Positions 1-63,833 of a stretch of DNA of 64,000 nucleotides are shown here, piece by piece. A program made the translations under genes and the position numbers. The notes beneath the pieces were generated by a model. The model worked only from the letters and a program-made list of their open reading frames with translations, made no database searches and was not told where the DNA came from. The DNA comes from Asparagopsis taxiformis (Eukaryota; Rhodophyta; Florideophyceae; Bonnemaisoniales; Bonnemaisoniaceae): assembly GCA_030407315.1 (NCBI GenBank), contig JALQPE010000056.1, positions 1-64,000 of the forward strand, written 5' to 3'. Position 1 is the first letter of the stretch. The number at the start of each line of letters is the position of its first letter.

Positions 1-592
1 GGAAATACCGTAAGAATATAGTGGAATGAAACTGCGCCGTGGGAGTGGGTAGAAGCACGTGGACATGGTGGAATTTTCCACTACTGTACGGAAAAATAAC
101 AATGGAAAGGACAAAGACACGTCGCGTTGGTCATGACGGTGACCGGAGGTGGCATATTCCACGATTTTTATAATTTTCATGCTGGAATGACGGAACGGGG
201 GAGCCATATGTATGACAGTACCATGTTGGACTCGAACCATGAACTTGGATGGTTATGCCGGTCTGTAGTACGGATGGCATTCGTAGCAGTGTAGTGAGGC
301 TAGCGTGATGGACTGGTTCCAACGCGCCATACCCTTCGATGGCGTCACGTTTTGGGCGTCCATGAGGAATATGATATCATATGGAAGAGGCGAAAATGCA
401 AAGTGTATGACGTTAACTAGCTAATCTCGATATGGCCATTGTTGTACCATAGGTAGGGTATGGTGGAAAGAGTAGACAATTGTACTTGAGTTTAGTTTTT
501 CTAGTATTACTTCGTACAGAATGGAACCATCTATGTAGATTTTTAGCACAGATACTACGGCATAGTTATTATCGCGGTCGCTAAAATTTTTA
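1..592. other. Stretch without recognisable gene
   Basis: Only short open frames on both strands with no recognisable motif. No palindrome of the element's family is present. It is probably the upstream part of the decayed gene at 593-2557 or intercassette DNA. Confidence 0.4.
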
Positions 593-2557
593 ATGAAGTC
601 ACTCCCCGCATGCACAGGATTGACCGGAATAGTGAGTTTCGCCCTGGCTTTAAGCGTGACTAGTATCTTGAACGCAGTAGTAGTGTGTTTGACAACTTGT
701 ATGGCAGTAGGGAACATGGTAGTGATTTCGTATCATACTATAAAAATGAAAAAATTGGACGTTACAGACATGGGTGAAGTAGTATCTGGTGAAGAAGTTG
801 ACGAAGACTTGTCCTAAACAAAATTGCAGATAGTGCGTTGTAGTATCTTTATTTCGTGGAGGAACTATGACTAGGCGTGAATCATTGCGAATTAGGCGAC
901 AGAGCGAAAAAGCGAAAGCTGGCCGTGAGCGTGAGCGAGCAGCGCCGTAGATGCACTTCCCTGTGTCGGAACGCAAATAGACGTGTGGTTCCAAGTGGGT
1001 GATGACGCAATATGGTGGAAGGCTACTGTTGTGGAAATCAAACTTCCTGAGCAGTATCCTGTTTGCAGTGGTAAGCCGTCAGTGGAGACCGCATCGATGT
1101 AGACAGAGGAGATGGCGTGTACACGCCTGGTGTGGTGGAGCACAATAGACAGGATGTGAGTGATGCAATTGTGAGGTTGACGACAGAGGAAAAGGATATT
1201 GCAGTGATGGAAGTATCGAAGTGGCGGTACTCGGATGCTGTGAAGCCAAGGCACGATGAAATGGTGGTTGCGGAAGGCAGATTGTTATATGATGCTATCC
1301 CTGAAAGGAATTACCCTTGTGTTTCCTACGAACATGTAAAATTTCTGATGGGAAGTAAGTTAATGTCCGGGGGTCAGCCACCGACACAGTGGCGAAGGAG
1401 CAACAGAGAGGTTGTGGACTACGAAGCGGTGGGGTAGAATTTCATGAACAATCAGATGGAGAATCTGAAGGGATATCACCGCAGAGGAAGAAGCAAAAAG
1501 TGGAATCAGCACTTGACGCCAACACATACGGTGGTATGGAGACAAGGCTGAGAACACTAGAAAATATAATGCTTTCTGGAAATGGTAGCGAGTGTCGGCT
1601 TGGTTGGAACGGAATGGTTCGAAATTGTGGATCAACAGTATCAGCTGGTAAGGTTTTATTGATGCTCTTACAGCGTGCGGTAGAGAAAGTTGTGGAACAG
1701 GTTAATCGAAGCACTTTGTCAAACTCAGGTGGCGGCTACCCACATAGTGAGATTGACGGTGCCTGTACAAGTGGAACGGCTATTAGCGGACCGGTGCAGA
1801 TTCCCATCTCATTGAGCACTGAGTTATTCCGGGAAATGCTAAAGGGAACAGCAGAAATCTATGGAGGGGGGTATTACAAAGTTTACCCAGGGCTTCACGC
1901 GGCAGTGGCTGGAACTGGTGGGGAAGCTTTGAACATTACGTGTTCCAGTTTTGCAACACTATCAGATCTGCTAGGATTGGGGCACCGATGGCGAACCGAG
2001 TGTCTGGTTCACAGGCGTAATATCAGCAACTCGGAAGAGGAGGACAATGAAGAGTGTAGTTACATGAACGGTTCGGCGAGGTCATGTGGTTTGCGGTTGT
2101 TTGGTACGATATTGTGCTCGGGAATCATGGAAGCACAGTCGACATCTGTTGCAATTGGCAGTAGCTCATTCTGCACTGTGGAAACAACATCAAACGTGTG
2201 GTGTCTAATTCGAAAAAGTAGTTCTGTGGTCCAAGGTGAATACGTGCACGGAATGGAGCTGCAGAAATGTCCTTTGACATGTGATTTGCACGGGAGGAGC
2301 GACGGTGAAGGGAGTCTGGAAGGGTGGAAAAGCGAAGGAACAAATGTTTCCGTATAGAATGGGAGCCTGCGATGCAAAGAAAGAGAGGAAAGGCAGGGGA
2401 TGTATTGTGGGGATCTCTGAGAGTGCATATGCCGTACGTCGTATTCCGTGGTGTGGAAGAACCTTGTCGTATAGACAAGTTGATAACAGAAGATGTAGTG
2501 AACGACGTAGTAGGGTATAGTGCGTCAGAGAAAAAGGCAGAGAAGTACATTAAATGA
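593..2557 (+). pseudogene. Frame-broken hypothetical gene in the leftmost visible cassette
   Basis: Open fragments on the plus strand follow one another at 593-817, about 1117-1437, 1389-2357 and 2324-2557. Each step moves to the frame one base back, as if single bases had been lost. The best fragment (1389-2357) has a basic nuclear-localisation-like stretch (RKKQKVE) near residue 33 followed by a Gly/Ser-rich part. The last fragment is lysine-rich and ends KKAEKYIK. Around 2065-2240 an alternative frame looks more protein-like, so further shifts are likely. I do not recognise a family. I read it as one decayed gene on the opposite strand from its neighbour at 2701-4370. It could also be a spliced gene, but I see no convincing intron borders. 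Confidence 0.3.
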
Positions 2558-2700
2558 TGCCAGCAGTTGGATGAATGAGAAATACTTTAATACAGATGAT
2601 GCATGCATTGCAAAGCATAACTAGTTGAGCGTTGGGAACTTTTCCTAGAACTACTAATGAACCATACCGATATAAAGTTTCTAATCAAACTACACATCAA

Positions 2701-4370
2701 TTAGAGAAATACCAAGCTCGTCATCCTCCTGTAGAGGGACGCAATCAGGATTGGAAATGCGCCTGTCTGCCGAGTTTTCAAAGGAAGTTCGGTTTGTACG
2801 ATGCTTGAATCGAAACGTACAGACTCGTATTCTTCAGCAGTGAGATTTCTCTTCTTTCGGATGATTCCGAACAGGCAATCACCTCCCATGAGGTAGTCCC
2901 GCAGCTCTAGATGTCCCCATGAAACTCGCAAAGGGAATCCATCTTTCCCGAACTGAGGTGTAGGTAACTTGCTGAGGGCCGCATTGAATAAACCTTGGAG
3001 ACATATTGCTATCCGATAACAAGCTTGAATGGCATGGGGCTCATGACAAAGCATCTCCAGTTGTGTGCATTGGCAGAAACTGCATAACAATATCATAGCT
3101 AAAGTAAGAAAAGAGAATGAACATACAGCCAATTTCTCCACTGGATTCTGCGCAGTTGTAATGTTTCCATTAACGATACCGCCGCTTACCTGAACTTTGT
3201 AAGTAACCTGAACGTGAAGCTCGGGACGACTGAGAATGAAATTTGAGAAGGTAGAATCATTTCTTGAATACACTTCTAGAGCGTCTTCTCTCCTGTTCCG
3301 TAAGCTTTCAAAGTTGTCGGAATTGAGTCAAGTGGACACATGTCCGACGTGGACACATCAGAGTCAAGTGGAACAGCAATAGTTGCCTTCATATCTCGGT
3401 GGATGAGGAAGAATGCTTGCTTGACCAATTCCATTTTCATTTGCTTACGGGAACTGTTGAAGAACTGGGTGAGCTGCCGTAGAGCAGAGGTAATGATCGG
3501 AATGGACTGTATATCCGACGGTGACAGGTGGGCATAGCGGAAGACGAAGAGGAGGACGTAGATGCACGGCGTGCTTCTCCTTTCGAACCAGACAGTCGCC
3601 GACGCTTTGAAGATCCAACCTGCAAACTCGTGGACTGTTCTATGTTGCGTTCTGCCTCCGTGGGCATCGAAATATCCATGGCATGGAAAAGAGCGCGCTG
3701 CGAAATGTGCAGCCAAGATGGTTTATCGATGGGCACAATTGTTGCATTGCGTAGTGCATAATCTCTTGAGATAGTATTGCTGTTCAAGTCCTCTTCTTCG
3801 CCGGGTCCAGGATGCCGGCATTCCTGGTGGCCGAGTCCTTCCATCGTACAATTCTGTCATTCGCCATCGAAATAAATGCTGTTCCGACAATAGAGCGTTT
3901 TAAGAATATATGCCGTTTCCCAACCGCCGTGCCAATTAGAGATTTCTTGGATTGTCTTACCTCTGCATTAGAACTGGAAGTCTGCGAAAACGACAATGCA
4001 GCAAGTAGCAATGTTGTGCAGGACTTCTCTTGCGGGGTTTCTTCAGACCTTGCATTCAAGTTCCTGAGCAAACTTGATCCACTGAAGTTTTGGTAAGCTC
4101 TGCAACGGTTCTGAAAGCGACGAATCTAGATGTCACATGCCTATTGTTGAACAAAGAGGACACTAGAGTGGTAATTTGACCTGATTTTCTTGATCTCTCC
4201 TCGAGAACTACTGAAGGTACAGTGTTTGTCCCTGCAGCAGCCGAGGTCATGTACCGAATGCAAGCAAGCTCCATTTCAATGGACGAAAGGGAGTCGCGCA
4301 TATACTGTTCGAGGGATGCAAACTGTTCCTCAAACTTTGCAAACCTTGACAATGATAATTCATCTCGCAT
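2701..4370 (-). pseudogene. Frame-broken hypothetical gene, minus strand
   Basis: Overlapping minus-strand fragments run 4370-4056, 4071-3784, 3844-3437, 3716-3276 and 3273-2701. Each of the four joins steps back one base. The N-terminal fragment is predicted helical (FEEQFASLEQYMRDSLSSIE), possibly a coiled coil. The third has a basic Ser/Arg-rich patch (SKRRRLSGSKGEARR) followed by a serine run. The fourth and fifth look like a folded C-terminal region. No family recognised. The start lies about 226 bp from the palindrome at 4596-4726, so the gene reads away from that palindrome. Four shifts in 1.7 kb argue for decay or for sequence errors. Confidence 0.35.
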
Positions 4371-4595
4371 TTCAGCTCAAAATGATGGGATGTTCCACGT
4401 CCGGGAGAGGAGAATTGAGGTGCACGAGCAAATTGATTATCCAACGAGAAAGATAAATAGAAAGACTCGAGGGAAATGTCTGTCGTAAGCAGACCAATCA
4501 TGTAACGGACAAGTGCAATGGTAGTGCCGTTACGAAATATGAGGGCTGTAACGGTCCTCGGCATACTGAGAAGCAGTGAAACCAGCAATGTAGGC

Positions 4596-4726
4596 TAGAG
4601 TTGAAATTGGTAATTTTTATGGTCTGAAATTGCTGCAGTAAAAAGCGATCTACCATTGTGCACTTTGCTAGATCGCTTTTTACTGCAGTAATTTCAGACC
4701 GTAAATATTACCAAATTTCAACTCTA
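4596..4726. repeat. Long palindrome P1
   Basis: Arms of about 60 nt begin TAGAGTTGAAATTGGTAAT and carry TTRCTGCAGTAA followed by AAAAGCGATCTA. The centre contains TTGTGCACTTTGC. The left arm has a few mismatches (GCTGCAG instead of ACTGCAG; TTTTTATGG opposite CCGTAAATA). It separates the minus-strand gene at 2701-4370 from the plus-strand methyltransferase cassette. Confidence 0.9.
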
Positions 4727-5700
4727 CAAACCATGACGGCCAACAATACATGATCTAGTATTTTACCACCGCTTATTCTGCTCAGAGACTGTGAAGGTGC
4801 GGCACTGGGAAACTCGGTGAGCTTTTCGGCCGTATACTTTGGTAATACACGACCGGGAATTTGTACGTAGCAGAGCACATTGGTGCCCCGCAATGTTAAC
4901 GACAGCAAAGCTAACTTTTTTGCTCTGTGCATTCCAATATGCGCAGAGTGCAATAAGCAGAGCAAGTGATAGCCCCCTTACTCTGCAGCACACATGTATA
5001 ACATTGCGCAATTTTACACACTAGTGCACTTGTCAGCATGCTGAACAGCAGTACGACGCGCCATCATCATGCGCTGGAATGTATCGTAGGACGTCCGCGA
5101 AGTTAGTTAAAAGTCTAGACTAGTTTAACGATCGATATCCAAAACTAGGAATTCCAGCAAGATTTATTCGTAAAAGAAGAATCTGATGATTATCGTTCCA
5201 TAAACTAGTCAGACGTTTCAGTTGGTTAGTTCTGGAATAAAGCATGAACGATTAGAGCGGTGCTTTAAATTTGGAAATTTTTCATTCTGAAATTACCAAA
5301 TTTCCATCTAGTGTGTACTCGGAACTAGTCTTGCTACTAGTATTTCTCTACTCTAAAAATTCCTTTCCATTGCGAATCGTTGAAAGTTAGTTTACTGGCA
5401 CAGAGTGCAAGCAACTTACGCACCCCTTCCAACTAGTACAAACCCCTCTACTAATCCCTGCAATACAACTCTGGACTTACGTCGCCCTTCCTCACTCAAA
5501 ACCCCCTGTCCCCACACGAATCCCCCCGTCGCGAGATATCGGCGGCGTGTCGGTTCCAGAATTTCCGATTTCGAATTTATTGGCGCCGCGTGGACTTTGG
5601 AGGGCGTGGACTTCCAGTCCGCCCTTTGATCGTCGAAAACTTTCCCCACTCATCTTTTTCCATTCTCCCTGCTCTCCCTTTTCTCTTCACCTCACAAGTA
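4727..5700. other. Intercassette DNA upstream of the methyltransferase cassette
   Basis: No supported gene. At 5267-5303 lies a short degenerate relative of the palindrome arms (AAATTTGG ... TTACCAAATTT) lacking the CTGCAG core. From about 5430 the strand becomes pyrimidine-rich (CCCCTTCC-type tracts) up to the ATG at 5701. This resembles the CT-rich leader of the 11,032 gene and may be promoter or 5' UTR. Confidence 0.4.
5267..5303. repeat. Degenerate palindrome relic
   Basis: The outer arms AAATTTGGAAATTTTT and ATTACCAAATTT of the palindrome family are present but the PstI-site core and apex are missing. It is probably an internally deleted copy of P1-type palindromes. Confidence 0.6.
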
Positions 5701-7522
5701 ATGGCGGAAGTACGACGGCGACATGGGCTCGTCGTAACACGCAGCGAAAATGGACCAACAGAACCGCATGATTTGTACGGAGACGGAACAATTCTCTGGG
5801 TGGATCCGGCGCGCGTTGTTTCAATTCCAGCGATTGAAGGGGCTGCCACTCCTGCCTCTGATATTCCCCGCGGAACGCACCTAAACTTCGATGCTCTCTA
5901 TCTGTACGGTACCATAGCGGAAAACGGGGACGTTACCCTGGTTGGAGGTATGGACGTGTGCGAAGAGGTATTGTCACGCCCCCGAACCAAGACTTCAAGG
6001 TATTTACTCCGCATGTGCTATGAGTCTATTTCCACGAAACCGCATACGCTTGCCTTGATTCTGTATCACATTCTGGAGAGCGAAAGGACAATTCCGTTCT
6101 ACGAAAGTGTGTCAATTGTAGCTTACATGCGGGACTGCTGGCATAATAGAGAGAAGGACGAGATAACGTTCCACTCGAAGAACGTTCACTCTCAGCGTTC
6201 CGAAGGGCTGTGGGCAGTCTGTACAGATTCAATCTACCATCTCTAGAAGCCATCGTAATCGTTGACAGGTGGTTTTCATATGCGTACCACCGCCACACGT
6301 TTAACATTGTGCAATCAGTGCGGAACTTCACGAGTACTGGTGATGATGGCAATACAGAGCTTGATACTAGAGTATGGGATCTGTTTCTTACCAGCTGTGG
6401 GATGCAGGATTTGTCGGTATCGTTCTTTATTCCGGTGTACATCAATGAGCGTGATGAGCCAAGGGGTGTAGAAATTTCAACGAAAACCTCCCAGAGTCCT
6501 CGTCCCTCAGGTCCAGTGTTCTATGAATACCAAAACCATAACACACAGGAAAGGACAGCTATTGGACGAGATGCGTACTCCAGGCAAACTCTGGCTTGTC
6601 AATTCTTTGTTTCACACGTTCAGGAAAGGGCTACAGATCATGGTAACTGGGCAACTCCAAGATATTCCCCGTCTTTCCGGAAAGTTGTATTTCTCATGGG
6701 ATTGATTCAGATGGATCGAGACTGGAAGTTGCGAGTAGAAACGCGCCCACGACAACGGACAAGAACCAGGTCTGCGGCTAGATTGACAGCGCTAATCAAA
6801 AAGGACAGTCCTTTTACGGCACAGCGTCTGGGATATGGGGTTCATCAGGTTCTGGCAGCATGGGATGAGTTGGCAAAATCCTTGGGGTCAGGCGGTGCAG
6901 AAGAGCTCCTACAACCTTACCTTCTTTACGACCAGAGACTGTTTACGTACCACGTCCTGGACTCGGAAAATAGGGGCTTTTCACCGCTTCGAGAGCTGAA
7001 GACCTTGTTGCATGGCAGAGGAGCTGTTCGAAGAGTGCAACACTCGGCAAGCATTTCAAGTGCTGCTGTCCATCGTACGCTGCTGCAAGACGCTCAGATG
7101 CGCCTCTGTGCAAAGTCATTCTGGGAACACTTAATGGCAATATGTCGCAATGACAAATTGTTCGACCTATCTGTCTCGGCTCCGCAAGATATACCGTTCA
7201 TACAGAGCTTCCAGCCGTCCCCCGGTCCCCGGTTTCCGGGAGGTTCACGACTATTCCGGCACTGGCGATGGTGGAAAGGCAGCTCACAGCGTTCAGCCTC
7301 ACAGAAGAGCCGCAATCAACGCCCGACCCAAATGAGGAGCTGTTCAGAGAAATGGAGACGACAGCTTCTCCAGTGCGGGAATCTTCGGTAACCCGACAGT
7401 TGTCGGAAGCCGTGGCCGCGAACCCGACTAAGCGTAGGCGTCTAGAGGTCAGTACGATCGGTGCAGCAAGCTCAGGGGCTAACCCGGCTAGCAGCAGCAC
7501 CGGTCAAACGAAGCTGATGTGA
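5701..7522 (+). pseudogene. Unknown protein in three frame fragments, directly upstream of the methyltransferase
   Basis: ATG at 5701 (MAEVRRRHGL) opens a frame to 6246. The text continues one base back in 6210-7391 and again one base back to 7522. The switches fall near 6200 and 7230, the latter in a C/G-homopolymer-rich stretch. The middle fragment has a basic region (RPRQRTRTRSAARL, about residue 180 of that frame). The last fragment ends in a low-complexity tail with an NLS-like PTKRRRLE. The final frame stops at 7520-7522, just before the ATG at 7528. The methyltransferase frame is again one base back, so this could originally have been the N-terminal part of the same polypeptide. No family recognised; the function is unknown. 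Confidence 0.45.
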
Positions 7523-7527
7523 ACTCC

Positions 7528-9183
7528 ATGCGGGTCGAAGAGGAAGTGTTAATTCCTGCGGAACTGGAGAACATGAAAGGATGTTTCCTACATACATTCA
7601 ACTGTAGTTTCCGAGACCTTCTGAAAAACTACGACGCCGTTGACAATCCTGGAAAGCCGCAAATCCGGGAAGGTGCTCAGTTGGTCCTCACTGACCCGCC
7701 GTACAATACTAGGCGTATGTCCGGCAGAGGAAACTCTGGTTACGATGTCCTCCGTCAGGAAGAAATCGAAGACACGGTAGCTGAAATTTCCAAGGTGACG
7801 CGCAAGGGTGGTCATGTTCTTATATTCACATCTGCTGCTCTGTTCTACAATTGGGTTTACGAGCTCCGCAAAGTGAAGTACTCTGCCGGCTATCCTATGT
7901 TTGCCGTTGATTCGCAGCCTATTGTGTGTACTCGGAGCCCGACACATTTCACATCCCCCCCGTATCGTATCACGACAAGTTTGTTGAATATGGTGGAGTT
8001 GGTCGTACATGCCACCAAGCTCGGCAAGGGGAGAGAAGGCTGGGGGATGGTTAATTACCGAAATGCCGGATACATACCTTCTAGATTCAAGGCTTGGACA
8101 AATGTCATCGACAACATCCCGCGGATCACTGCGTCGGAGACGGTGAAATATATGGACAAGGACAAGAAGAAGGTTACGTTGCGCCCCGAGCAGAAGACCG
8201 TCGCTCTCATGCAAGAGCTCATTGGGCGTTTCTCAAACCAGGGCGACCTGGTTGTTGACATGTTTGCTGGAACTTTCTCCACCGCTGTTGCATGCCTGAC
8301 AATGCACCATGGTCAGTACAGGAGGTTTGTCGGGTGTGAGAAGTTCAAGGATTGCTACGAACTGTCTCTTCCTAGAGTCAACGTCGCATTTCTCCACCAG
8401 GTCTCTATTGGGAACTTTGCCCAGCAGTCCACGACTGCCCTACAGCAGCTGGCTTCTGCTCGTCTGGGAACTTCGGAAGAGAGTTCATCATTGAAGACAA
8501 CCTCAAAAGTGCCCATTTCAACCAAACTTCCGCCCCACCTCATCAGCTTTCTTACTGGCATCTGGTGCATTCCGGACCAGCACAAGGAATTGACAGAACA
8601 ACCCATTGATAAGTGGCCACAATCGCTGCTGGGTTTGTTATCTACCGTGGATATTAAAACCCTGCTGTCAATAGACGCGATGGCACACAATGTATACGTC
8701 GCAGCGTCAACGATTCCTTCGGCTGGTGACGGCCTGTTTGCAAGAGTGGATATTGATCCTGGAGATATTGTAGGGTACTATTTCGGGTCTGTGGTTTACA
8801 AGGATTTGTACAAGGCGAAATTGAAGACTTTCGGTACTGGACCTACTTCCTTCTCGATTGAGCGTTTCCAGAAGTACGCTGTTCAAATTAAGGATGCAAA
8901 TGTGAAATGTCTGATGCCATCCACGTCTGCAAGTCCGATCTTCATTGTTCCATTCGAGTATTGTGCGGCATCGAAAATCAACGACCCAACGTTTGTGGAC
9001 CCAGCGGAGGGAACTGAGCGTCCGTCACGTACTGCTAATGTTAGTTTCTCTTCCCCCATACAAGAACTTCTTGATGAGACCTCCGTATCAACCTATCAAG
9101 TTGTATGCGTCACTGCCAATGTGCCCATTTCAGCTGGCTCAGAGTTATTCATCGAGTACGGACACGAATACTTTTCCGTGTAA
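7528..9183 (+). CDS. DNA amino-methyltransferase (DPPY, beta-type order) fused to a SET domain
   Basis: 551 aa from ATG 7528. Residues 1-290 form an N6/N4-type DNA methyltransferase: the catalytic motif DPPY at 56-59 (LVLTDPPYNTRR), then GGHVLIF as the following strand, and the AdoMet motif DMFAGTFSTA near 243. This DPPY-before-FxG order is typical of beta-class enzymes. DPPY favours N6-adenine over N4-cytosine, but specificity cannot be read from sequence. Residues about 385-551 are a SET domain: VYVAASTIPSAGDGLFA at the start, GYYFGSVVY, and ELFIEYGHEYF at the extreme C terminus. The usual NHSxxPN segment is weak (SRTANVSF). The predicted protein could modify DNA and, via SET, lysines on histones. 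It lies between palindromes P1 and P2, whose near edge is 148 bp past the stop. It has no visible break. Confidence 0.85.
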   Translation: MRVEEEVLIPAELENMKGCFLHTFNCSFRDLLKNYDAVDNPGKPQIREGAQLVLTDPPYNTRRMSGRGNSGYDVLRQEEIEDTVAEISKVTRKGGHVLIFTSAALFYNWVYELRKVKYSAGYPMFAVDSQPIVCTRSPTHFTSPPYRITTSLLNMVELVVHATKLGKGREGWGMVNYRNAGYIPSRFKAWTNVIDNIPRITASETVKYMDKDKKKVTLRPEQKTVALMQELIGRFSNQGDLVVDMFAGTFSTAVACLTMHHGQYRRFVGCEKFKDCYELSLPRVNVAFLHQVSIGNFAQQSTTALQQLASARLGTSEESSSLKTTSKVPISTKLPPHLISFLTGIWCIPDQHKELTEQPIDKWPQSLLGLLSTVDIKTLLSIDAMAHNVYVAASTIPSAGDGLFARVDIDPGDIVGYYFGSVVYKDLYKAKLKTFGTGPTSFSIERFQKYAVQIKDANVKCLMPSTSASPIFIVPFEYCAASKINDPTFVDPAEGTERPSRTANVSFSSPIQELLDETSVSTYQVVCVTANVPISAGSELFIEYGHEYFSV

Positions 9184-9602
9184 CCAGTACCCTGTCAGGA
9201 GAAATGTTGAGAAGTAAATGATTTCCCATCTTCCTTTAAACCCTGTTCATAGGCTTGTAGTTCAAGTAAGTGTATGTGAGACAGGAGGGAAACCCTGCAC
9301 AGGTCTCCTAAACGACGTAAAACCCGAGCGTAAAATTTGGTAATTTTTTTGGCTGTGAAATTACTGCAGTAAAAAGCGATCTAGCTTGTGCACTTTGCTA
9401 GATCGCTTTTTACTGCAGTAATTTCACAGCCAAAAAAATTACCAAATTTTAAGCGCACCTAGAGCTGACCTGTGGCGCCTTTTCGGCGACTGCTCTAGTC
9501 TGCTCTCAACGCGACCGTTGCTTCAATGATGCCATTAGGCAAAACGGTATGGCTTAGGTTTACTTTCTACAATAAACAGTCTTTGACGCAGCTCGACTGT
9601 GT
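9093..9602. repeat. Left arm of an interrupted inverted duplication (methyltransferase 3' end plus block A)
   Basis: 9093-9330 (last codons, stop and 3' flank of the methyltransferase gene) reappears inverted at about 10,026-10,264. 9452-9602 (block A, with CAATAAACAGTCTTTGACG) reappears inverted at 10,265-10,409. Reading the right arm as its reverse complement, the two blocks are in swapped order and joined directly at ACTGTGT. It is therefore a rearranged rather than a simple fold-back copy. Confidence 0.85.
9331..9451. repeat. Long palindrome P2
   Basis: 121-bp near-perfect palindrome. The arms are TAAAATTTGGTAATTTTTTT, GGCTGTGAAA, then TTACTGCAGTAAAAAGCGAT. The apex is CTAGCTTGTGCACTTTGCTAG. 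It lies 148 bp downstream of the methyltransferase stop codon. Confidence 0.95.
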
Positions 9603-9904
9603 ATGATGGCCGTACTACACCTTGCGGGTGTCACGATTGTTTGCTAGCAGGCGCAAGTAGCTCCACTATGGGACAGACCAGAACATGTATTCGTGGTCAT
9701 GCTTCGTGCATTACCATACGGTGCATTTATATTAGTTCATGTACATCCGGGTGAATATAGCGATGGAAAAGTAGAGGAACAACTACATTGCATTGCTCGC
9801 TAGCTTGCGTTCCGATGGTTAACATGCCGGAAACAGAGGGTACTGGTCCGCGGTATGAGGGGAGATGTGCAAGGCAAGTACCACAGCCGCCACAAGCTAG
9901 ACTG
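9603..9904. other. Unique spacer between the inverted blocks
   Basis: About 300 bp without a supported gene or repeat. It holds only short open frames. Confidence 0.4.
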
Positions 9905-10025
9905 TAAAATTTGGTAATTTTTTTGGCTGTGAAATTACTGCAGTAAAAAGCGATCTAGCAAAGTGCACAAGCTAGATCGCTTTTTACTGCAGTAATTTCA
10001 CAGCCAAAAAAATTACCAAATTTTA
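9905..10025. repeat. Long palindrome P3
   Basis: 121 bp with the same arms as P2 (GGCTGTGAAA type) and the apex in reverse orientation (GCAAAGTGCACAAGC). It is the inverted partner of P2 in the duplication around 9.1-10.4 kb. Confidence 0.95.
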
Positions 10026-10409: not shown

Positions 10410-10532
10410 TTAAAATTTGGTAATTTTTTTCGCTCTGAAATTACTGCAGTAAAAAGTGATCTACCTAAGTGCACAAAGCTAGATCACTTTTTACTGCAGT
10501 AATTTCAGAGCGAAAAAAATTACCAAATTTAA
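10410..10532. repeat. Long palindrome P4
   Basis: About 123 bp. The arms are TTAAATTTGG-like with CGCTCTGAAA, then TTACTGCAGTAAAAAGTGAT. The apex is CTACCTAAGTGCACAAAGCTAG. It marks the left border of the ParB/dioxygenase cassette. Confidence 0.95.
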
Positions 10533-14000: not shown

Positions 14001-14594
14001 TTCAAGGAAGGCTCCAAGCTCAGGTTTGGCAGAACAGGTCTTCGGATGCTGCTCACAGGGTCGGGCTGTGATCGTCAGATACCTCATCTGGACTTCACAT
14101 ACCCCGGTCCACCGCCAGGGGAACCCAACCGATACTACGGTAAACCTGCACCAGATCCTGACTATGCATTCATTGCAACTGGTGCAGTGGGTTCCCCGAT
14201 TCTGGTACGACCTCGCAGTCATACCTTCCTCAACTCCCCACGTAAGGCATTCCTGGACGTCTGGCCCCACCTCCTTCCCAAGTTGGTCTGGATACCTCCG
14301 TTCTCTGTTTTTGTCTCTCGTGGAGACTTGGAACATGCAGGTCCAGGATGGCAGGACCACGATTTCGTGAAGACTAGGCTTTCCAACACTGGAATGCCGT
14401 ATGGTCGCCATATTCGAGTCCATACAATGGCTGCGCGTGTCTCCTCTCAGCTCGTCAACGACCTAGTTTATGCGCCAGGGCTGGGTGACGACCCCAATGC
14501 TCTGCCAGAGCCCTACGATTTCGATCACGACTACGCGTCGGATAGTGATAAGGAAGAGGAAAGTAGTAGCGAAGAGTATATTACAGTTGAATAG
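11032..14594 (+). CDS. ParB-like domain / zinc finger / 2OG-Fe(II) dioxygenase fusion, one frame break
   Basis: From ATG 11,032 (MPPRTIPQ) a frame of 942 aa runs to 13,860. Residues about 40-140 resemble the ParB/Srx fold with the hallmark YIADGLHRRGAL near 95. A proline-rich linker follows (about 380-560). A Cys/His cluster spans 582-642 (CSLGPHC, HKCTACNSK, HNLCDY, FVCSRQCY). Then come basic, acidic and Ser-rich regions (TRRGEKRKRDD). From about 885 a dioxygenase begins (DSDGYVVLENIL). The domain continues one base back in the frame ending at 14,594 and carries HLDF (HxD), a distal GDLEHAGPGW histidine and a GRHIRVHT arginine, the expected iron and 2OG ligands. The switch lies at a five-G run near 13,834, consistent with one missing G. 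I infer DNA-base oxidation. A protein-directed hydroxylase is the alternative. Confidence 0.75.
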
Positions 14595-14818
14595 ATAGCA
14601 TATGAACTATAACTTGCTCTAAACTGATATTTCTCTTGTTTCCATGTTCTCCCACATTCCTATAGTCTACTTGTAGTTTGTCAGAATCTCCTTCCGTTGA
14701 TGGTTCTCTGCCCTCGCCCGTTCTGGTGCATGGCAAGGTAAAGAATGGTAGTATGCTAGTTGCAACCAGTGTGCATTCGTAAGTCGCAAAGGGCGCTGGA
14801 CCCCTGGCGTTGAGGTCC

Positions 14819-14940
14819 TAAAATTTGGTAATTTTTTTCGCTCCGAAATTACTGCAGTAAAAAGCGATCTAGCAAAGTGCACCAACCTAGATCACTTTTT
14901 ACTGCAGTAATTTCGGAGCGAAAAAATTACCAATTTTTTA
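14819..14940. repeat. Long palindrome P5 (hybrid arms)
   Basis: 122 bp with CGCTCCGAAA-type arms. The left arm carries AAGCGATCTAG, whereas the right arm carries the complement of AAGTGATCTAG, so the two halves come from different sub-versions. The right flank ACATTTCCCGTTCCATG is shared with P6. Confidence 0.9.
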
Positions 14941-15510
14941 CATTTCCCGTTCCATGGATACCGCGTTTACAGAGGTGCTCAAACCAGGGAACCTGGCCAC
15001 GTAAGCATGGTTGAGCTATCACTGTTTCAACAAAGTTAGTCATGTTGCAACACTTCACAGAGCACAACATTATTTTGAAATCACTAGTTTGTACAACATT
15101 CCCATAGGTACACGACACATTCCGAATTCTGACTAGGCATAGCAGCCACTAAACATACGTGTAAGACTTTTGAATTCCTGCTGCGGCTGGAATGCAATAT
15201 GCACTATCCAAGTCTTTCCAAATAGGGGCTATCCCATACATAGGGTACATGAAGTGAAGGTTTAAAGAAGTTTGGTCTATTTTACCTGGTAGTTTCTCTC
15301 GTCGACTTCACTTCCTAGATCATCTATATATAGACATGTAGTATACCGCGGAATGGGTACTATGACAATAATACTCCTAATGACCTATTGCGATTACCCT
15401 GTACGTACCTTTCCCTCTCGATATAACACATTAGGGTCGTAAGCGCCGCATATGGGGCTTATTCCGGTGCAGGTCGTTGGAAAAGCCCAAGTTTGGCGCC
15501 CGGAAGCTCA
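14941..15510. other. Noncoding spacer between palindromes P5 and P6
   Basis: About 570 bp with no supported gene. A TATATATAG near 15,325 could be a TATA-like element, but nothing open follows it before P6. Confidence 0.4.
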
Positions 15511-15650
15511 GGGAGATGTTTAAATTTGGTAATTTTTTTCACTCCGAAATTACTGCAGTAAAAAGTGATCTAGCAAAGTGCACCAACCTAGATCACTTTT
15601 TACTGCAGTAATTTCGGAGCGAAAAAAATTACCAAATTTCAACATCTCCC
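15511..15650. repeat. Long palindrome P6
   Basis: About 140 bp, the longest of the family. The pairing extends outward to GGGAGATGTT / AACATCTCCC. The arms contain CGCTCCGAAA-type sequence (left arm CACTCCGAAA) and AAAAAGTGATCTAG; the apex is GCAAAGTGCACCAACC. It lies 216 bp upstream of the transposase reading frame. Confidence 0.95.
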
Positions 15651-15865
15651 GTTCCATGAATGATTGCTGTTTATGGGTAGTATAGTCGTATGTGCAACTG
15701 AGCAAGGTCATAGTTAAACTATTAGACTGTAACGGTCGACTTATTCATGTTCTCCCTTTCTACAGCTTTATATCTGTGTGTTTCGTTTCTATGCTCACTA
15801 CAGCAAGGCCTACACGCGGTCCCTCACACATATATCAGAGCCTGCAAATTGTCTGTCATCGAGAC

Positions 15866-16837
15866 ATGGCAAGACCGAGAAAGTCTAGGACTGGCCTACG
15901 ACTACGATACAACAATGTATACCCTGGTCGTAATCGGGCTCGGCGTTCGACTACCAGAACAGTTTCTGACCCTTTCTCTGTCCATCACATGGGCTGGAGA
16001 CCAATGCAAAACCCTCTTCCTCCCCCACAAATAGACCATGACAGCACTTTGAACATTCCCCAGAATCCAAATGCTATCAACCACCGGCTCCCAGATGCAA
16101 CACCCCCTTCCTCGCCTGTCCTGGATACGTCTACAACTGGGAACAATAGCTTGCATGCTATTGCTCTGGTACCCATGGATACCACTGTCTCTCTGGAGTT
16201 CGCCAAAAGCGAAGAGGGAAACACCCTGCCACCTCCAGCAGTTGAAAACCTATCCACCATTCCCGACGATTGTGATATGATACTTCCTTCTAGGACTGAA
16301 CCTGCTTCTGCTGTTGCGACAGTTCCTACTGAATTCCATCACGATAGTTCTGACGAACCCGATGATGTATTCTCAGAACATGATACCGTGTCGAATGATA
16401 AAGACCTGCTACTGCAGGAGGAGATAGAGGCTAAACTTCTCATCTCTTCTCCTTTCATCTTGAATACGTCCAATCCAGCCAAAGCTCGCAGTTACATGAC
16501 ACAATGGACTACGCTGTATGCTGTCGCAAAGCTGACAGGTTCCACCAAAAGTACTGCCGCTAGCCTGCAGGAAGATCGTGTTTTGTTCGATTTCGCGAGA
16601 AAAGGCTCAACGAATAAACACGTTCAGCAAGGTCTGCCTCATTATTCGACAATAGTGCGTAAGGTGAGACCGTGGCTATTCTACAATGCATGGTTGCGTT
16701 CAGAAACCGTTTATTTTCCTGTAAACGTAGAGCGCAGTGCAGCCCGTGTAGCTTCCTCCGCAATTCTACGAAGAAGCCGCGTCGAACGAGCAACAACAGG
16801 CCAATCAGCACCTGTACTTATCGTTCCACCAAGCTAA
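15866..16837 (+). CDS. N-terminal region of the transposase reading frame, closed by an in-frame TAA
   Basis: ATG 15,866 (MARPRKSRTG, an AT-hook-like basic start) opens 323 codons to TAA 16,835-16,837. The frame is already open from 15,692, but the segment upstream of 15,866 looks like leader. The middle is Pro/Ser/Thr-rich and acidic. The last 100 residues look folded (KARSYMTQWTTLYAVAKL; STIVRKVRPWLFYNAWLR). After the TAA the same frame continues without shift into the downstream transposase. This is either one long gene with a single nonsense codon (readthrough or mutation) or a separate small DNA-binding protein. The function is unknown beyond the location. Confidence 0.5.
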   Translation: MARPRKSRTGLRLRYNNVYPGRNRARRSTTRTVSDPFSVHHMGWRPMQNPLPPPQIDHDSTLNIPQNPNAINHRLPDATPPSSPVLDTSTTGNNSLHAIALVPMDTTVSLEFAKSEEGNTLPPPAVENLSTIPDDCDMILPSRTEPASAVATVPTEFHHDSSDEPDDVFSEHDTVSNDKDLLLQEEIEAKLLISSPFILNTSNPAKARSYMTQWTTLYAVAKLTGSTKSTAASLQEDRVLFDFARKGSTNKHVQQGLPHYSTIVRKVRPWLFYNAWLRSETVYFPVNVERSAARVASSAILRRSRVERATTGQSAPVLIVPPS

Positions 16838-16900
16838 TATGCACGAGCAGACATTACTACGCCACAAATATTCGACCTTGCGTGGCGTGATAACACTCAA

Positions 16901-19900
16901 TTGGATGCTTCCGACTCGGATGAGTTACTAAGTTTACATGGTAACGTGTGCAAGTCGAAGCTAGGAAAATTCAGAGAGTACTCCTTAAAAGGACAAAACT
17001 ACACGATGAGGGCAGAGGATAAGGATGGCTCTCCGGTTCCTGCTTTCGGGGGTAGTATTGTGGAGCTTCACGTGATATCTGGGCGGCACTCCTCTCCTCT
17101 AGATCCTACTCTCAGTTCCCTTTTCCAACAGGAATCACTATCTTCCAGCCATGAGTCGTTCAAAGCTCTCACATCTTCTTCGTGGATTAACTCTGGTGCC
17201 GCATTTCATAGCAGGCTTTCGGTCTCCCCGCATTCATATGGGTCCGCCTTCATCCTTCAGAAAGAGTCGTTCCGGGAATATGCTCGGCCGGGTGATCACC
17301 TGACAGTTTTATCACCCAGTCCTGAGTGTAACCCTACTCAAAATTGTGGTATACAGTTCTTCATTGGGCTTGTCGTCAGCTCTCCCGGACCGCCAGGCCC
17401 ATCACAAAAACTGCTCTTTCTCGTCAACTCTGAAGGGCATTACAAAGTTGTCGGCGGAACTCGTGCAATCAATAATGTCAAGTTATTGAAACCAGGCACG
17501 AGCCCCAGCCCCTTTCATCCTACACATCTCCGTGGGGTTCTCAGCTGCGGTACCACATACTACGTCTATCCATTTCTTTTATACTGCGATGACTTCAATG
17601 AAGCCTCTGGTAAGAAAGGGAGTGCTGGAGGATGCTATATGCTCCCAATGGGTCTTCCGCTGGACTGTCGCCGGAACAGTTCTGCTGTGCGCGTTATCGG
17701 TGTCACAGGTCCTGGTGTTAGTACAAACCATATCCTTCGACATATCTCTAGAGACATTATTCAAGGATGTACGTCGGGGTTTCGTGATGTCGATCCAGAC
17801 GGCAATGAATCTCTAATTTTCCTGGACTTTATTGGTTTCGTATCGGATTATCCTGCCTGTTCTCATGTGCTGGATGTCATGGGGCACAACGCAGACTGCC
17901 CATGCCATTTGTGTTTCTTTGTAAGAGGGGGGAAATATGGGAAGAACTCGCAGTTTGGCTACGACACCCGTTTACATTCGAGCTCTGATACACACTTTCG
18001 CACATCCGAGCGAACAGCTGCTGTTCAGTCATCGGAAAGTTCTGCAAACATCTTGAAGTATCTGGGTTTGAGAACAGTGCAAAATATCACAGACACTCCA
18101 TTGCATCTCATTGAAAGACTACTTCATGAAGCTAGGTCCAAAGGGCTGGTTCCAACCGGGACACCACTCGGAAACGATGGTCTACGAATCCCTGTCGTGC
18201 CTGCTATTCTGGACCCATACCGTTCGACGTTTGTTGGAATTGACCATCTCCTCCACGGACTGGCAAAGGATGCTCTGGACAATGCTTTTTCAAGCTTGCC
18301 TAATGATGGTGTGAGAAGGCTGGCCGACAGGTTCATGGTGGATGCCCTCCGTGTATTGGGTCTCGCAAATCAGAACAAGATATATAACTTCAACGCAGGT
18401 GAAACTCATACAATGGGAATCTCAGACAGATTTGCAGTTCTCCTCGTCGCCGAACACTGCTTCAGGTCTTCTCTGAAATTCCAATCGCAGACTACAAGGT
18501 CATCCGAAGGTAGCGGTTCAAGGTCACTCCAGGCTTCTGAAGAGCAACTCCATCTGTCTCTAGAACTTGTTCGTCTCCTGTCCTCTATATCTGCAGCTAC
18601 ATACTTCCTACCACGAAAAAATATCGACGGTTCTGAGGCAGTACAGAGAGCTACAGGGAATTCTGCGCACAACAGTCTCCGTCGTCTGCAGCAGCTATCG
18701 AAAGAATATGCTACTCTAGTGGATGACCTGCTCAAGACTGTTCCTACCAGACAGCGGAGCACAGCGGTCTCGAAGAAACGGAAGATGCAGACAGAAGGTA
18801 TAGTAACGAATGATAATGACCACATTGAGATGGAAAACAAGACTGCTGGATTCCGGGCAAGGAAGATTCTTGACAATAAGCCAAACTTGCACCGTCTCAT
18901 TGAGGCATTTGAACACACTGTTCCTCTGCTCGGACACGCTCGCCAGGTAGCTGAGCTATCATTCGAAGCAACACATCAGCAAATGAAACGAGGTCTAGAG
19001 CATTCCGGAGGTGCTGACAGACAGTTGGATGCTATGTTAGCGGCACTCGGAAACTATTGGAAAGGAAGCCTCCATCTTGCTTTGAAAAGTTTCTCCAATT
19101 CTACTCCAGCATCTGTGGAGAGACAACGTTCTAAACGGTTTCTCCTTCGTGTTCTATTCGGACGGGAGCACTGTAAATCCATGGAGAACCTCCCGGCTAG
19201 TACGCTGCATGACCTCTGTCAAGAACCCCTTCTCGAACATTTGAATAGGTCTTCTTTACCATTCTTCTCTTCTCCATATTCATATTGCTCGTGGACAGGA
19301 GTTCCCTCTTCATTACCACAGCAGGATTTTTCCTGTGGGCAGAATTCGGATGCAGTCATGCTTCATGGAAAACCTTGCAAGGGAGCACGTCTCAGTTCTG
19401 CCCACCCTGCCTGTGCAGCTTCGCCCTCTGCTGCGTCTCGGGACTTTTCAAAGCCACAAGAAATAGCTTCTGGCTGTGTAGTACAAGCTTGCTACTCAGC
19501 TTCCCCGTCTTCTAGAATTCTACAGAAGACCTGTTCGCCTTCTTTTTGGGCTGTTACCACCGTGTTTGACCTGACTATTGATGGAAACATTGCTTCACCT
19601 GGAAACGTTTGCATACACGAATCTCACCAGGAAAACTTTTCTCCACCACACGCTATTGTTCTTCCAGCTATCAAGCAGAAGTCCTCCCCCACTGCGTTTG
19701 CTCCGAACACCGATTCCGGCTCCTGGTTTCTCCCTCTCACTTCAGGGGTTCGTAAGATTGGTCTCCTCCACAATTGTAGCCCTTCATTATGTTCTGTGGA
19801 GCAAGGCACTTCGAATGGAGGAATTACGCATGGAGGTCCTTCGTTTATGGATGGTGGTTCCTTCTCTATCTTTCCAAGAGAAGATGGATATCCGCCAAGG

Positions 19901-19909
19901 ACTGCATAA
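16901..19909 (+). CDS. Tnp2/CACTA-like (Plavaka-like) transposase
   Basis: 1002 aa from the first ATG after the upstream TAA. The catalytic region has the Tnp2 order: YPFLLYCDDFNEA near 224-232 (first Asp); a GCYMLPMGLP then VTGPGVSTNHI block; SDYPACSHVLDVMG near 315; then a Cys/His knuckle CPCHLCFF near 335. Further along, PVVPAILDPYRS and LLHGLAKD match the helical insert seen in this group. The third catalytic acid is not assigned. The C-terminal 250 residues are Ser-rich with paired cysteines. It is the gene nearest the element's right terminus and is bounded by P6 and the P7 core. KDZ-type transposases, known to travel with TET/JBP dioxygenases in fungi, are the main alternative. The frame is unbroken after 16,901. 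Confidence 0.65.
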   Translation: MDASDSDELLSLHGNVCKSKLGKFREYSLKGQNYTMRAEDKDGSPVPAFGGSIVELHVISGRHSSPLDPTLSSLFQQESLSSSHESFKALTSSSWINSGAAFHSRLSVSPHSYGSAFILQKESFREYARPGDHLTVLSPSPECNPTQNCGIQFFIGLVVSSPGPPGPSQKLLFLVNSEGHYKVVGGTRAINNVKLLKPGTSPSPFHPTHLRGVLSCGTTYYVYPFLLYCDDFNEASGKKGSAGGCYMLPMGLPLDCRRNSSAVRVIGVTGPGVSTNHILRHISRDIIQGCTSGFRDVDPDGNESLIFLDFIGFVSDYPACSHVLDVMGHNADCPCHLCFFVRGGKYGKNSQFGYDTRLHSSSDTHFRTSERTAAVQSSESSANILKYLGLRTVQNITDTPLHLIERLLHEARSKGLVPTGTPLGNDGLRIPVVPAILDPYRSTFVGIDHLLHGLAKDALDNAFSSLPNDGVRRLADRFMVDALRVLGLANQNKIYNFNAGETHTMGISDRFAVLLVAEHCFRSSLKFQSQTTRSSEGSGSRSLQASEEQLHLSLELVRLLSSISAATYFLPRKNIDGSEAVQRATGNSAHNSLRRLQQLSKEYATLVDDLLKTVPTRQRSTAVSKKRKMQTEGIVTNDNDHIEMENKTAGFRARKILDNKPNLHRLIEAFEHTVPLLGHARQVAELSFEATHQQMKRGLEHSGGADRQLDAMLAALGNYWKGSLHLALKSFSNSTPASVERQRSKRFLLRVLFGREHCKSMENLPASTLHDLCQEPLLEHLNRSSLPFFSSPYSYCSWTGVPSSLPQQDFSCGQNSDAVMLHGKPCKGARLSSAHPACAASPSAASRDFSKPQEIASGCVVQACYSASPSSRILQKTCSPSFWAVTTVFDLTIDGNIASPGNVCIHESHQENFSPPHAIVLPAIKQKSSPTAFAPNTDSGSWFLPLTSGVRKIGLLHNCSPSLCSVEQGTSNGGITHGGPSFMDGGSFSIFPREDGYPPRTA

Positions 19910-20203
19910 TACTCTAGGGTCTAGTACATAAGCTTCTCTACCATATTACTTACCGTAAACAAACTTCCTCATATTGTAGCGTTCCCGTCACATACATCCA
20001 CCTTGACATTGGCCATACTTAAGTCCCTTGTCCCAAAACCTGTGAGACAATATGTTCTATTCTATGTAACCATCTCTAATTCCTCGTCTATACCATTCAT
20101 GCTTCTTCCAGAGCTTATCATTTCCTTGAACTGCCTCAAGCCTGAACCAGCTTCCTCAGGGCGGAACGTACCACAATAAAATTAAAGTAAAATTAGGTTT
20201 CTT
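19910..20203. other. 3' flank of the transposase gene
   Basis: About 290 bp, no gene seen. AT-rich toward the right (AATAAAATTAAAGTAAAATT). The match to the inverted copy at the end of the window begins about 20,185. Confidence 0.4.
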
Positions 20204-20264
20204 TTACTGCAGTAAAAACTGATCTACCAAATGCATCTTCCTAGATCACTTTTTACTGCAGTAA
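20204..20264. repeat. Palindrome P7 (core only, diverged apex)
   Basis: TTACTGCAGTAAAAA-type arms with CTGATCTACC on the left and GTGATCTAGG (complement) on the right. The apex is AAATGCATCTT instead of the GTGCAC type. The AAATTTGGTAATTT outer arms are replaced by unrelated AT-rich sequence. Confidence 0.9.
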
Positions 20265-20350
20265 CTAGTCATTTTTTCTAATTTTTCATCATTGGCTCCT
20301 CAGCCTGCAATACACGTTTCCGCTCACAAGCGTGCAGCTCCACGCCAGCT

Positions 20351-20390
20351 GTAATGAAATAGAACACTACCTAGTCTTCTATTTCATTAC
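20351..20390. repeat. Hairpin in terminal block
   Basis: Arms GTAATGAAATAGAA and TTCTATTTCATTAC. The partner copy at 63,794-63,833 is a perfect 19+2+19 palindrome, so this copy has lost part of its stem. Confidence 0.85.
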
Positions 20391-20609
20391 GTGTTCATGA
20401 CGAGTCCATCTCGAGTCCATGACGTGTCCATGACGTGTTCATAGATCATCGATGATTTGTTTCTGATTTGTCAGTACGAAAAGCGCGCGCTTTCTCACTA
20501 CGCAAGTGAAATACGCGACCTCTGGGCTCACTCTGCAGCAGTATTTAAGCCTTGCGTCACGCCGGGCAACATCGCCAGCACCTGTCGCTCGGAGCACACC
20601 ACCTACGCA

Positions 20610-20672
20610 GGATGGGGCGGCGGAGTGCAATCACATCCCTACGGATGTGATTGTGCCCCGCCGCCTCCATCC
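20610..20672. repeat. GC-rich hairpin in terminal block
   Basis: Arms GGATGGGGCGGCGG plus AGTGCAATCACATCC, and GGATGTGATTG plus GCCCCGCCGCCTCCATCC, around a 4-nt loop. The inverted copy at about 63,510-63,573 keeps the same fold. Confidence 0.85.
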
Positions 20673-21433
20673 TACGATAAGGTTTTCCAGCTCATTTAGT
20701 CTCTTGGCCATTCCTCCCATTCTCTTTTTCTGCGGTTCTTCGTTGTTCTTCTGCTAACATACTTTTCTGCCTTTCCTACTTTCTGTTTCGTCTTTCTCCA
20801 GGGCTACTGTCATTACTACGTTTTCTCACTTCTAATCGAGCTTTTGGCATTCCGTTTCCAGCACTAACCACTGTGTCATCCACTTCTTTCCATCTATGTG
20901 CCAGCAGAAGTTTCTGGGTTCTCTACAATCCGCTTACTCAAGCTCTGGCTCCACTATCAACGGTATGTTCTCTCGCTTCTAATCATGCTTCTACCGTTGA
21001 TGAAATTACATTCCTAGCACTAACCATTGATTCATCTATTCTTTTCCTTCCTGGTGCCAACAGAAATTTCTGGCTTCCCCTCATCTCTCTTTTCATGCCT
21101 ATATGTATTTGTAGTTACTTTATGTAGAGCTAGCGTTTTGCCGTTTAGTGTCTACCATGGTAGCGTAGTTCATAGTTCCTTAGTGCAGTGTACAGATGAT
21201 CTTCATGTCGTTAAACTTTTGGCGTTAGCTGCCCATTTACCTATTCCATATCCACTACACCATATCGTAAATCTTGCGTACCCGCTACTGGCTGCAACCT
21301 AGTCTAATTCATTGTCCCTATGCCGATTTCCATTCTACCTAGATATCGTTTCAGTCAGACCTATCCGTCCTGCAGTTTCTCCGCAAAAGTGCGATGTGCC
21401 GCCCATTCTACCTTTCAGTTTCTACCCAGAGCG

Positions 21434-21555
21434 CCCACCGGTGCAACCACTCTACCCAGTGGACATGGTCCACGCCCACTCGACGGTACAACCACTCTAC
21501 CCAGTGAACATGGTCCACGCCAACCCGACGGTACAACCACTACATCCAGTGGAAG
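21434..21555 (+). repeat. 45-bp tandem repeat inside the terminal block
   Basis: Two full units and one partial unit of 45 bp (ACCACTCTACCCAGTG ... CATGGTCCACGCC). They keep an open frame (VQPLYPVDMVHAHST and variants) that belongs to a 309-codon frame at 21,312-22,241. In the inverted copy that frame is interrupted by a stop near 62,484. I therefore do not call a gene. Confidence 0.75.
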
Positions 21556-22307
21556 TGAACCGTACCCATTACAGTGCTCCACGGTGGAATAATACCAGTG
21601 TCACGAGCAGGTGTTATAATAGAATATATCCGGGCTTTACACAGTACTGTAGTTTGGAAACTAACCGCGCTTTGCCTTGGGCCGTATATGCCCAGTCAAT
21701 GGTCCCTTTCCAGATTATCGTTTGGCCAGTTCCACAAGTCAGCTTGGTCACGTCCCATAAGCAAAAAGTCACCTACTCTGGAATTATTCCAATGAATACA
21801 ATAATCATACTTTGGTCACCGTCCATTCAGCGAGTGCTGCTTACGCCTGGTTTCAGACACCGGACCGTCACGGTGTGCCCATTATATTTTATAGTTTATT
21901 TCTACGAATCGCTCTGCACCTTCCACCACATATCGCAGTCACGGTGCACCCCATATCTAACTATTCCCATATACAGTACTGGTTCCATTCCAACAGTCCG
22001 TGCCTGCGTGACTTGGCCCGTTCTAGTCAACCCGCCGTCCTGCTCATATATGGACGTGGTTCATTTCCATCCCTACGTGTCCTTCCGAACATGGTTCAGC
22101 CATCACCTCACGGCCACACCATACTTCTGCTTGGTTCCTGCCTACTATAAAACAAAAATCGCCGTGCTGGTCTCAGCCCATGATTTTTTACATTTTTTTC
22201 GATGGGCCTTATCCAAACGTTGGGGATGGGCGTTCCGCTAAAATATGGTGACTAGTTCTACTGTACAATACGGCATTTTCCATGGAATATTCTCTATTTT
22301 TGCTTAT

Positions 22308-63793: not shown

Positions 63794-63833
63794 GTAATGA
63801 AATAGAACACTAGGTAGTGTTCTATTTCATTAC
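63794..63833. repeat. Perfect 40-bp palindrome
   Basis: GTAATGAAATAGAACACTA, GG, then its exact complement. The partner at 20,351 is damaged. Confidence 0.9.

Follow-up and report, generated by a model that had tools for sequence, protein, structure and literature searches.

A giant, apparently CACTA/EnSpm-like transposon in the red alga Asparagopsis taxiformis with a methyltransferase-SET gene and a putative oxygenase gene

What is the DNA that fills the first 22 kb of a 64,000-nucleotide stretch of the Asparagopsis taxiformis genome, and what might its genes do? The stretch (hereafter the window) covers bases 1-64,000 of contig C56 (JALQPE010000056.1; 74,123 bases) in an assembly of 141.5 Mb and 3,156 contigs (GCA_030407315.1). 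An original prediction, made from the letters of the window, had proposed a giant eukaryotic transposon carrying genes for the modification of DNA and chromatin. We found that window positions 1-22,313 are one copy of a multi-copy DNA transposon of ~22-23 kb, which holds a transposase-like gene, a methyltransferase-SET gene and a gene with ParB-like, Cys-rich and putative 2-oxoglutarate-Fe(II) (2OG-Fe(II)) oxygenase parts. The genome-wide lists of places used below hold either the best 40 places per module, the window included, or the first 100 in contig order.

The transposon itself was upheld by its terminal inverted repeats (TIRs), its multiple copies and its target duplications. A 2.6-kb query from the right part of the element gave 40 scored long matches including itself, and the other 39 stopped at window positions 22,311-22,324, mostly at 22,313. 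This shared end showed the sharp terminus predicted at 22,307 to be real and placed it at 22,313. In four other copies (C1837, C544, C1897 and C1754) the flanks on the left side became alike at one point ~122 bases to the left of window base 1, so that the element extends by that length beyond the contig start. All four start there with CACAGGATAAGCAA, which is the right end in reverse complement except for one base of the window copy. A search for further copies of this 14-base terminus found 225 exact occurrences across the genome, and the reversed control had none. The size of the element was ~22.4 kb by window coordinates, 22.6 kb in C1837, 22.8 kb in C1844 and 21.8 kb in C86. Since the copies share both TIRs as start and stop, we could rule out that 1-20 kb is ordinary host DNA flanking a smaller element.

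Target sites were sought in 12 copies, and both ends were found in 10 of them, C1815 and C1956 having no left end in the stretch examined. Six of the ten testable copies were flanked by a 2-bp duplication (TG in C86 and C1000, TC in C635, GA in C1986, AA in C1837 and CA in C1844). With a chance of 1/16 for a 2-bp match, six or more in ten has a probability near 1e-5; no three-base match outside the ends was found among the ten. The ends lay 26-38 kb apart in C1000, C635, C98 and C384, and nested insertions or composite elements are therefore likely at these places. An inverted block at ~61,885, originally noted at 61,891, was confirmed as a repeat of at least 2.1 kb with 97% identity to the right end of the element, but it does not serve as the opposite TIR of this element, whose true left end was located in other copies; it is the right end of a second copy. 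Three contig pairs (C98/C384, C593/C1844 and C86/C730) have in common either an insertion flank or a pair of outward-facing ends separated by 555 bp, which suggests haplotypes or assembly duplications. Sites that vary among copies at window 20300-21800 fall preferentially into one of three phases. This periodicity had suggested a gene in the last 2 kb at the right end, an idea that was dropped since the matching frames carry many stops.

We assessed the linkage of the genes with five module queries of 40 places each, grouped by inferred origin with a tolerance of 1,200 bp. Among the places listed there were 126 groups, of which 50 held at least two modules, 17 at least three and two (the window and C1847) all five. 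In the 17 groups with three or more modules the inferred origins agreed to within 347 bp over ~20 kb, and the gene order was colinear in many copies. These groups exclude that the genes are never linked, an outcome that would have told against the prediction. The remaining 76 groups hold a single module, which is no evidence of module absence in lists of the best 40 places. Wider spacings between modules on C1824, C98, C1017, C1994 and C1900 could be explained by nested insertions.

The termini and the transposase motifs suggest a member of the CACTA/EnSpm-like (CMCT) group and not of KDZ, with which the element had first been compared. Both ends have the 5'-CA..TG-3' (CAC..GTG) form in CACAGGATAAGCAA, and the 2-bp duplications fall within the 2-5 bp of CACTA/EnSpm elements. 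According to the accessible text of PMC12730594, CMCT elements mostly have 5'-CA..TG-3' termini and 2-5-bp duplications, Zisupton makes a target-site duplication of 8 bp, and Plavaka elements end in TGT..ACA or CATCA..TGATG. KDZ elements of the Zisupton type were thus ruled out by the termini and by duplications of 2 bp rather than 8 bp, and Plavaka was rejected by the termini, since the element ends in CACAG..CTGTG. The Tnp2-like transposase of the original prediction was retained in part: the frame at 15,686-19,909 contains D, D, CPCHLC and E in order by eye, but it matched no Tnp2/Plavaka profile. Its histidine pair is spaced by 2, against an H(3-4)H expected with C(2)C between the second D and E. 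The run LYCDD, VSDYPA, CPCHLC and ELSFEATH resembles that of EnSpm/Plavaka transposases, and we take the gene for a putative transposase of this type.

The predicted fusion of a DPPY methyltransferase to SET was borne out by Pfam, which placed both domains in one frame (7,492-9,180). N6_N4_Mtase matched with E=1.3e-14 and 55.2 bits (cut-off 26.7), and SET with E=1.3e-5 and 25.9 bits (cut-off 22.4). Both the DPPY and the DMFAGT motifs of an N6/N4 DNA methyltransferase are present, and their order, with DPPY before the S-adenosylmethionine motif, is that of the permuted methyltransferases of the beta class. The methyltransferase also matched phage DNA methyltransferases (PHROG 67, E=2.8e-25) and 256 of 50,697 phage records, all at less than 60% identity and at 25-27% in the ten matches listed. 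We consider it catalytically plausible and conserved, and it may write marks on DNA.

How strongly the genes are constrained was estimated from the ratio of nonsynonymous to synonymous polymorphism (pN/pS) in 11 copies per stretch, or 7 for a control at the right end. Methyltransferase-SET had the lowest ratio, 0.09, followed by the oxygenase part with 0.29 and the transposase with 0.32; the middle of the oxygenase protein gave 0.50. A value of 0.38 for the methyltransferase N-terminus is unreliable, because L010 is poorly aligned in that stretch and the window copy changes frame within it. Of two genes near the left end, the one at 1075..2539 gave 0.40 and the one at 2704..4376 gave 0.58, which was not significant. 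Ten methyltransferase copies were identical over the compared codons, and therefore a recent burst of copies is likely and the effective sample small. Three other methyltransferase classes (L086-L088, short stretches) are relatives at 37-79% protein identity, with Pfam N6_N4_Mtase scores below the cut-off. The ratio of nonsynonymous to synonymous divergence was 0.05 against L088 (133 codons, 79% identical), 0.14 against L087 (135 codons) and 0.42 against L086 (81 codons), synonymous sites being saturated for the pair L087-L088 and near saturation for the element against L088 and against L087. Judged by these sequence comparisons, the methyltransferase is under purifying selection.

The methyltransferase, oxygenase-like and transposase frames are all broken in the window copy, and longer open frames occur in other copies. 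A run of C breaks the methyltransferase frame in 48 of 61 matched copies, while 13 keep a read-through length. Because the relatives L087 and L088 also read through there, the broken six-C length is most likely derived, possibly having arisen twice, or is partly an assembly error. A programmed frameshift was considered, since six C occur on both sides of the divergence, and was rejected on the same 13 copies and two relatives.

The predicted ParB/zinc-finger/2OG fusion was found in one gene as DGLHRR, a Cys-rich segment and HxD...H, but its ParB profile match was weak and its oxygenase part was identified by motif. The ParB-like part matched a PHROG profile at E=0.044 and seven of 50,697 phage records, themselves ParB-like, at E=0.3; it had no Pfam match. 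The putative oxygenase has HLD, GDLEH and a downstream Arg (HxD...H...R by motif only), and no TET/JBP or other 2OG family profile in Pfam matched it at E<=10. Single-sequence AlphaFold models of the oxygenase and ParB regions reached pLDDT values of 32 and 37, respectively, and were not used for fold searches. The protein is therefore a putative oxygenase, which may act on DNA. Searches of viral contigs with six peptide patterns per protein found no relatives of the methyltransferase, oxygenase-like or transposase protein.

The palindromes said to bound the gene cassettes proved near-perfect, with arms of 54-69 nt. A palindrome 22-mer occurred 313 times in the genome (control 0), and palindromes stood at matching positions in other copies among the places listed, for example six on C544.

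Related elements indicated how far the methyltransferase and the oxygenase motif keep together. A pattern coding for LTDPPYN occurred at 1,211 places in the genome (control 0), and an oxygenase-motif pattern, searched with up to one mismatch, at 246 places (control 1). Of the first 100 methyltransferase places, on contigs C10-C217, 26 were of CTCAC codon classes and 74 of the CTGAC class. An oxygenase motif lay within 10 kb of 17 of the 26 CTCAC-class places (10/14, 2/5, 3/5 and 2/2 by class) and of 0 of the 74 CTGAC-class places, where random density predicts ~3.5%. Among the places listed the pair occurred in four arrangements with a near-constant distance within each: the oxygenase motif lies at about +6.4 kb from the methyltransferase on the same strand (6 places, the window's own type), at -3.6 to -3.8 kb on the same strand (4 places), at -5.8 to -6.0 kb on the opposite strand (4 places) or at -6.8 kb on the opposite strand (3 places). 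The commonest LTDPPYN codon classes (74/100 listed) include L086, the methyltransferase with ~37% identity over 81 codons. A second subfamily (L035, L039-L042) is 96-97% identical to window 16,391-20,200, while towards the N-terminus its transposase is more diverged, with 51% identity over 166 codons; C2078, C2079, C2341 and C2342, of this type, match the right end at 98%.

Table 1. Features of the transposon copy and of the second copy in the window (strand given as + or -; a point marks features without strand).
Feature	Position	Strand	Basis
Transposon copy, lacking ~122 bp at left because the contig starts inside it	1..22313	+	aligned copies, shared ends
Left-end gene, no family assigned; split frame in window, open over 451 codons in L053; limits approximate	1075..2539	+	frames
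Second left-end gene, no family assigned; split frame in window, open over 562 codons in L051	2704..4376	-	frames
Intergenic palindrome	4604..4717	.	repeat analysis
Methyltransferase-SET gene: N-terminal part of no assigned family, N6/N4-type methyltransferase, SET; N-terminal frames broken in window	5701..9183	+	frames, profiles
Methyltransferase motif IV, DPPY	7693..7704	+	motif, profile
Methyltransferase motif I (DMFAGT), after DPPY	8257..8274	+	motif
SET domain, NVS replacing NHS, terminal EYG kept	8725..9162	+	profile, motif
Intergenic palindrome	9328..9454	.	repeat analysis
Intergenic palindrome	9904..10026	.	repeat analysis
Intergenic palindrome	10403..10540	.	repeat analysis
ParB-like/Cys-rich/2OG-Fe(II)-like gene; frame broken once in window, near 13.8 kb; last 787 codons open in L029 and L031	11032..14594	+	frames, motifs
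ParB-like DGLHRR motif	11320..11337	+	motif, weak profile
Cys-rich segment, probably zinc-binding	12778..12954	+	by eye
HxD motif (HLD) of putative 2OG-Fe(II) domain	14085..14093	+	motif
Candidate second iron-binding His (GDLEHAG)	14322..14342	+	motif
Intergenic palindrome	14819..14940	.	repeat analysis
Intergenic palindrome	15511..15650	.	repeat analysis
Tnp2/Plavaka-like DDE transposase; in-frame stop at 16,835-16,837; open over 1,289 codons in L034	15686..19909	+	motifs
Candidate first catalytic D (LYCDD)	17579..17593	+	motif
Candidate second D (VSDYPA), then CPCHLC	17840..17914	+	motif
Candidate catalytic E (ELSFEATH)	18953..18976	+	motif
Right terminal inverted repeat, CACAGCATAAGCAA read inward; family form CACAGGATAAGCAA	22300..22313	-	terminus comparison, genome pattern count
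Right end of second copy, inverted; body continues past window (oxygenase motif at contig position 70,258)	61885..64000	-	repeat match, motif

The rest of the window holds other repeats. Inverted arms of ~1.8 kb, 99-100% complementary in the pieces listed, surround a gene with a MULE transposase domain at window 24408-32585, which is a young Mutator-like element. A Copia-type element (RVT_2, rve) lies between identical 110-nt direct repeats at 38229-42871, and 33406-36178 and 58766-61220 form a direct duplication with pieces 88-99% identical and three WD40-repeat frames in between. As to the host, PBS_linker_poly exceeded its cut-off at 13 places in the genome, and among 14 controls only Synechococcus matched; this makes a red alga the likely host, though glaucophytes have phycobilisomes too. 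A phycobilisome linker and a copy of the methyltransferase gene stand on one contig, C1598.

What might the cargo do? We give slightly better than an even chance to the reading that it serves the self-marking or anti-silencing of a 22-23-kb CACTA/EnSpm-like transposon in a red-algal nuclear genome. The transposase would bind the element ends and move the element by cut-and-paste. The methyltransferase, of bacterial or phage type, would add methyl groups to the DNA of the element, at adenine N6 or cytosine N4. The SET domain fused to it could do so to a histone or another protein at that site, and the mark on DNA would thus be tied to one on chromatin. The oxygenase may be carried to DNA by the ParB/Cys-rich part and would there strip or convert host silencing marks, and together the cargo would keep the element expressed or mobile where the host silences repeats. 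As far as the accessible text of PMC8566409 goes, DNA methylation in Gracilariopsis chorda is found on genes and promoters as well as on transposons, small RNA accompanies the methylated transposons, and H3K27me3 lies on repeats of Cyanidioschyzon merolae; an element therefore has something to evade.

Several observations weigh against this reading. SET carries NVS in place of NHS, the usual SET catalytic motif, with EYG present. The transposase, beyond its motifs, had no Pfam (core E<=10, full protein E<=5), NCBIfam, PHROG or meaningful Protein Data Bank (PDB) match, and the oxygenase had no NCBIfam, PHROG or meaningful PDB match besides none in Pfam (E<=10). The 2-bp duplication was absent from four of the ten testable copies (C1754, C1847, C98 and C384), two of which, C98 and C384, share one insertion site. 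The most abundant methyltransferase classes (74/100 listed) are not near an oxygenase motif, nine of the 26 CTCAC-class places have none within 10 kb, and for eight of the 26 oxygenase places found on these contigs no methyltransferase is listed at that distance or closer. In the rearranged families the putative oxygenases are 23-base pattern matches, and L087 has an in-frame stop further on. The right-end control gave pN/pS of 1.22, 1.50 and 0.30 by frame, so that the test is imperfectly calibrated and alone not decisive. The frame break at the C run belongs here too.

Set beside self-marking or anti-silencing, it is rather unlikely, though the strongest of the rivals, that the cargo only writes: the marks set by methyltransferase-SET on the element's DNA and chromatin would signal self-recognition or transposition (as in end protection or replication-coupled transposition), and the 2OG-like protein would act on protein or RNA, not on DNA. 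Among the cargo stretches compared, methyltransferase-SET is under the strongest constraint, related methyltransferases outnumber the oxygenase motif at the pattern places counted above, and no profile links the oxygenase to TET/JBP; yet the pair in four arrangements suggests joint function, and the protein with the oxygenase motif contains, in addition, ParB-like and Cys-rich parts, which are commonly DNA-binding. A more elaborate scheme, which we regard as unlikely, is a modular transposon-borne system in which methyltransferase-SET writes linked DNA and histone marks, a ParB-like oxygenase bound to element sites such as the intergenic palindromes erases or converts marks in cis, the pair is co-inherited through shuffling of gene order and, together with the amplified LTDPPYN methyltransferases, it sets much of the alga's N6-methyladenine or N4-methylcytosine pattern. 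Against its palindrome-binding part, the exact 22-mer was not among the listed places (contigs up to C753) on C134, C215, C635, C644 and C730, where the arrangements differ.

We hold it quite improbable that the cargo silences as a copy-number brake, with methyltransferase-SET placing repressive marks on sibling copies. A bdelloid rotifer methyltransferase of related type, fused to a chromodomain, does deposit transposon-silencing marks in the available part of PMC8885841, and the 48 frame-broken copies would fit; a selfish element would, however, hardly retain a gene that silences itself, and the strong purifying selection also speaks against it. Least probable by far is that the genes were caught by chance and play no role in transposition. 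Large EnSpm elements with extra open reading frames (ORFs) are known (PMC6431247, as accessible), but the long-term purifying selection on the methyltransferase and the recurrent pairing of the motifs across rearranged elements disfavour this explanation.

If self-marking or anti-silencing is true, the element would be a mobile one that combines a candidate eraser with a single polypeptide writing on both DNA and histones, this writer being maintained by selection. It makes testable whether transposons rather than the host set adenine or N4-cytosine methylation in a red alga, and in what way selfish DNA escapes silencing in organisms other than animals, plants and fungi. The kind of element is already known from giant red-seaweed EnSpm, dioxygenase-bearing fungal EnSpm and SET-bearing transposons. 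A search of open-licence full-text literature, Repbase Reports being outside it, returned no element that combines methyltransferase-SET with a ParB-like oxygenase. Giant En/Spm (CACTA) families of Chondrus crispus (Kojima, Bao and Jurka 2013) are 16-20 kb long with 4-5 ORFs against the usual 1-2, according to the accessible part of PMC6431247; like the element here, of ~22 kb, they are red-algal, EnSpm-type and enlarged by extra ORFs. This comparison is by size and ORF number. The accessible text of PMC4455052 states nothing on the Chondrus EnSpm ORFs, and a possible shared cargo is the main threat to novelty. In the accessible text of Kojima 2025 (PMC12730594), fungal EnSpm and Plavaka transposons carry TET/JBP genes for which anti-silencing was proposed. 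They share with our element the CMCT group and oxygenase cargo, here in putative form, and differ in that ours has no TET/JBP profile match, a ParB-like/Cys-rich fusion and an added methyltransferase-SET gene. The same text gives HarbingerS and MuDR transposons of Phytophthora with SET genes, which resemble the element in their cargo and belong to other superfamilies, a fusion to a DNA methyltransferase not being described there. Phage N6/N4 methyltransferases are alike by profile, and the SET fusion and transposon context set the present gene apart from them. The bdelloid N4CMT (PMC8885841, as accessible) likewise joins a bacterial N6_N4-type methyltransferase to a chromatin module in a eukaryote, with SPPY and a chromodomain there and DPPY and SET, on a mobile element, here.

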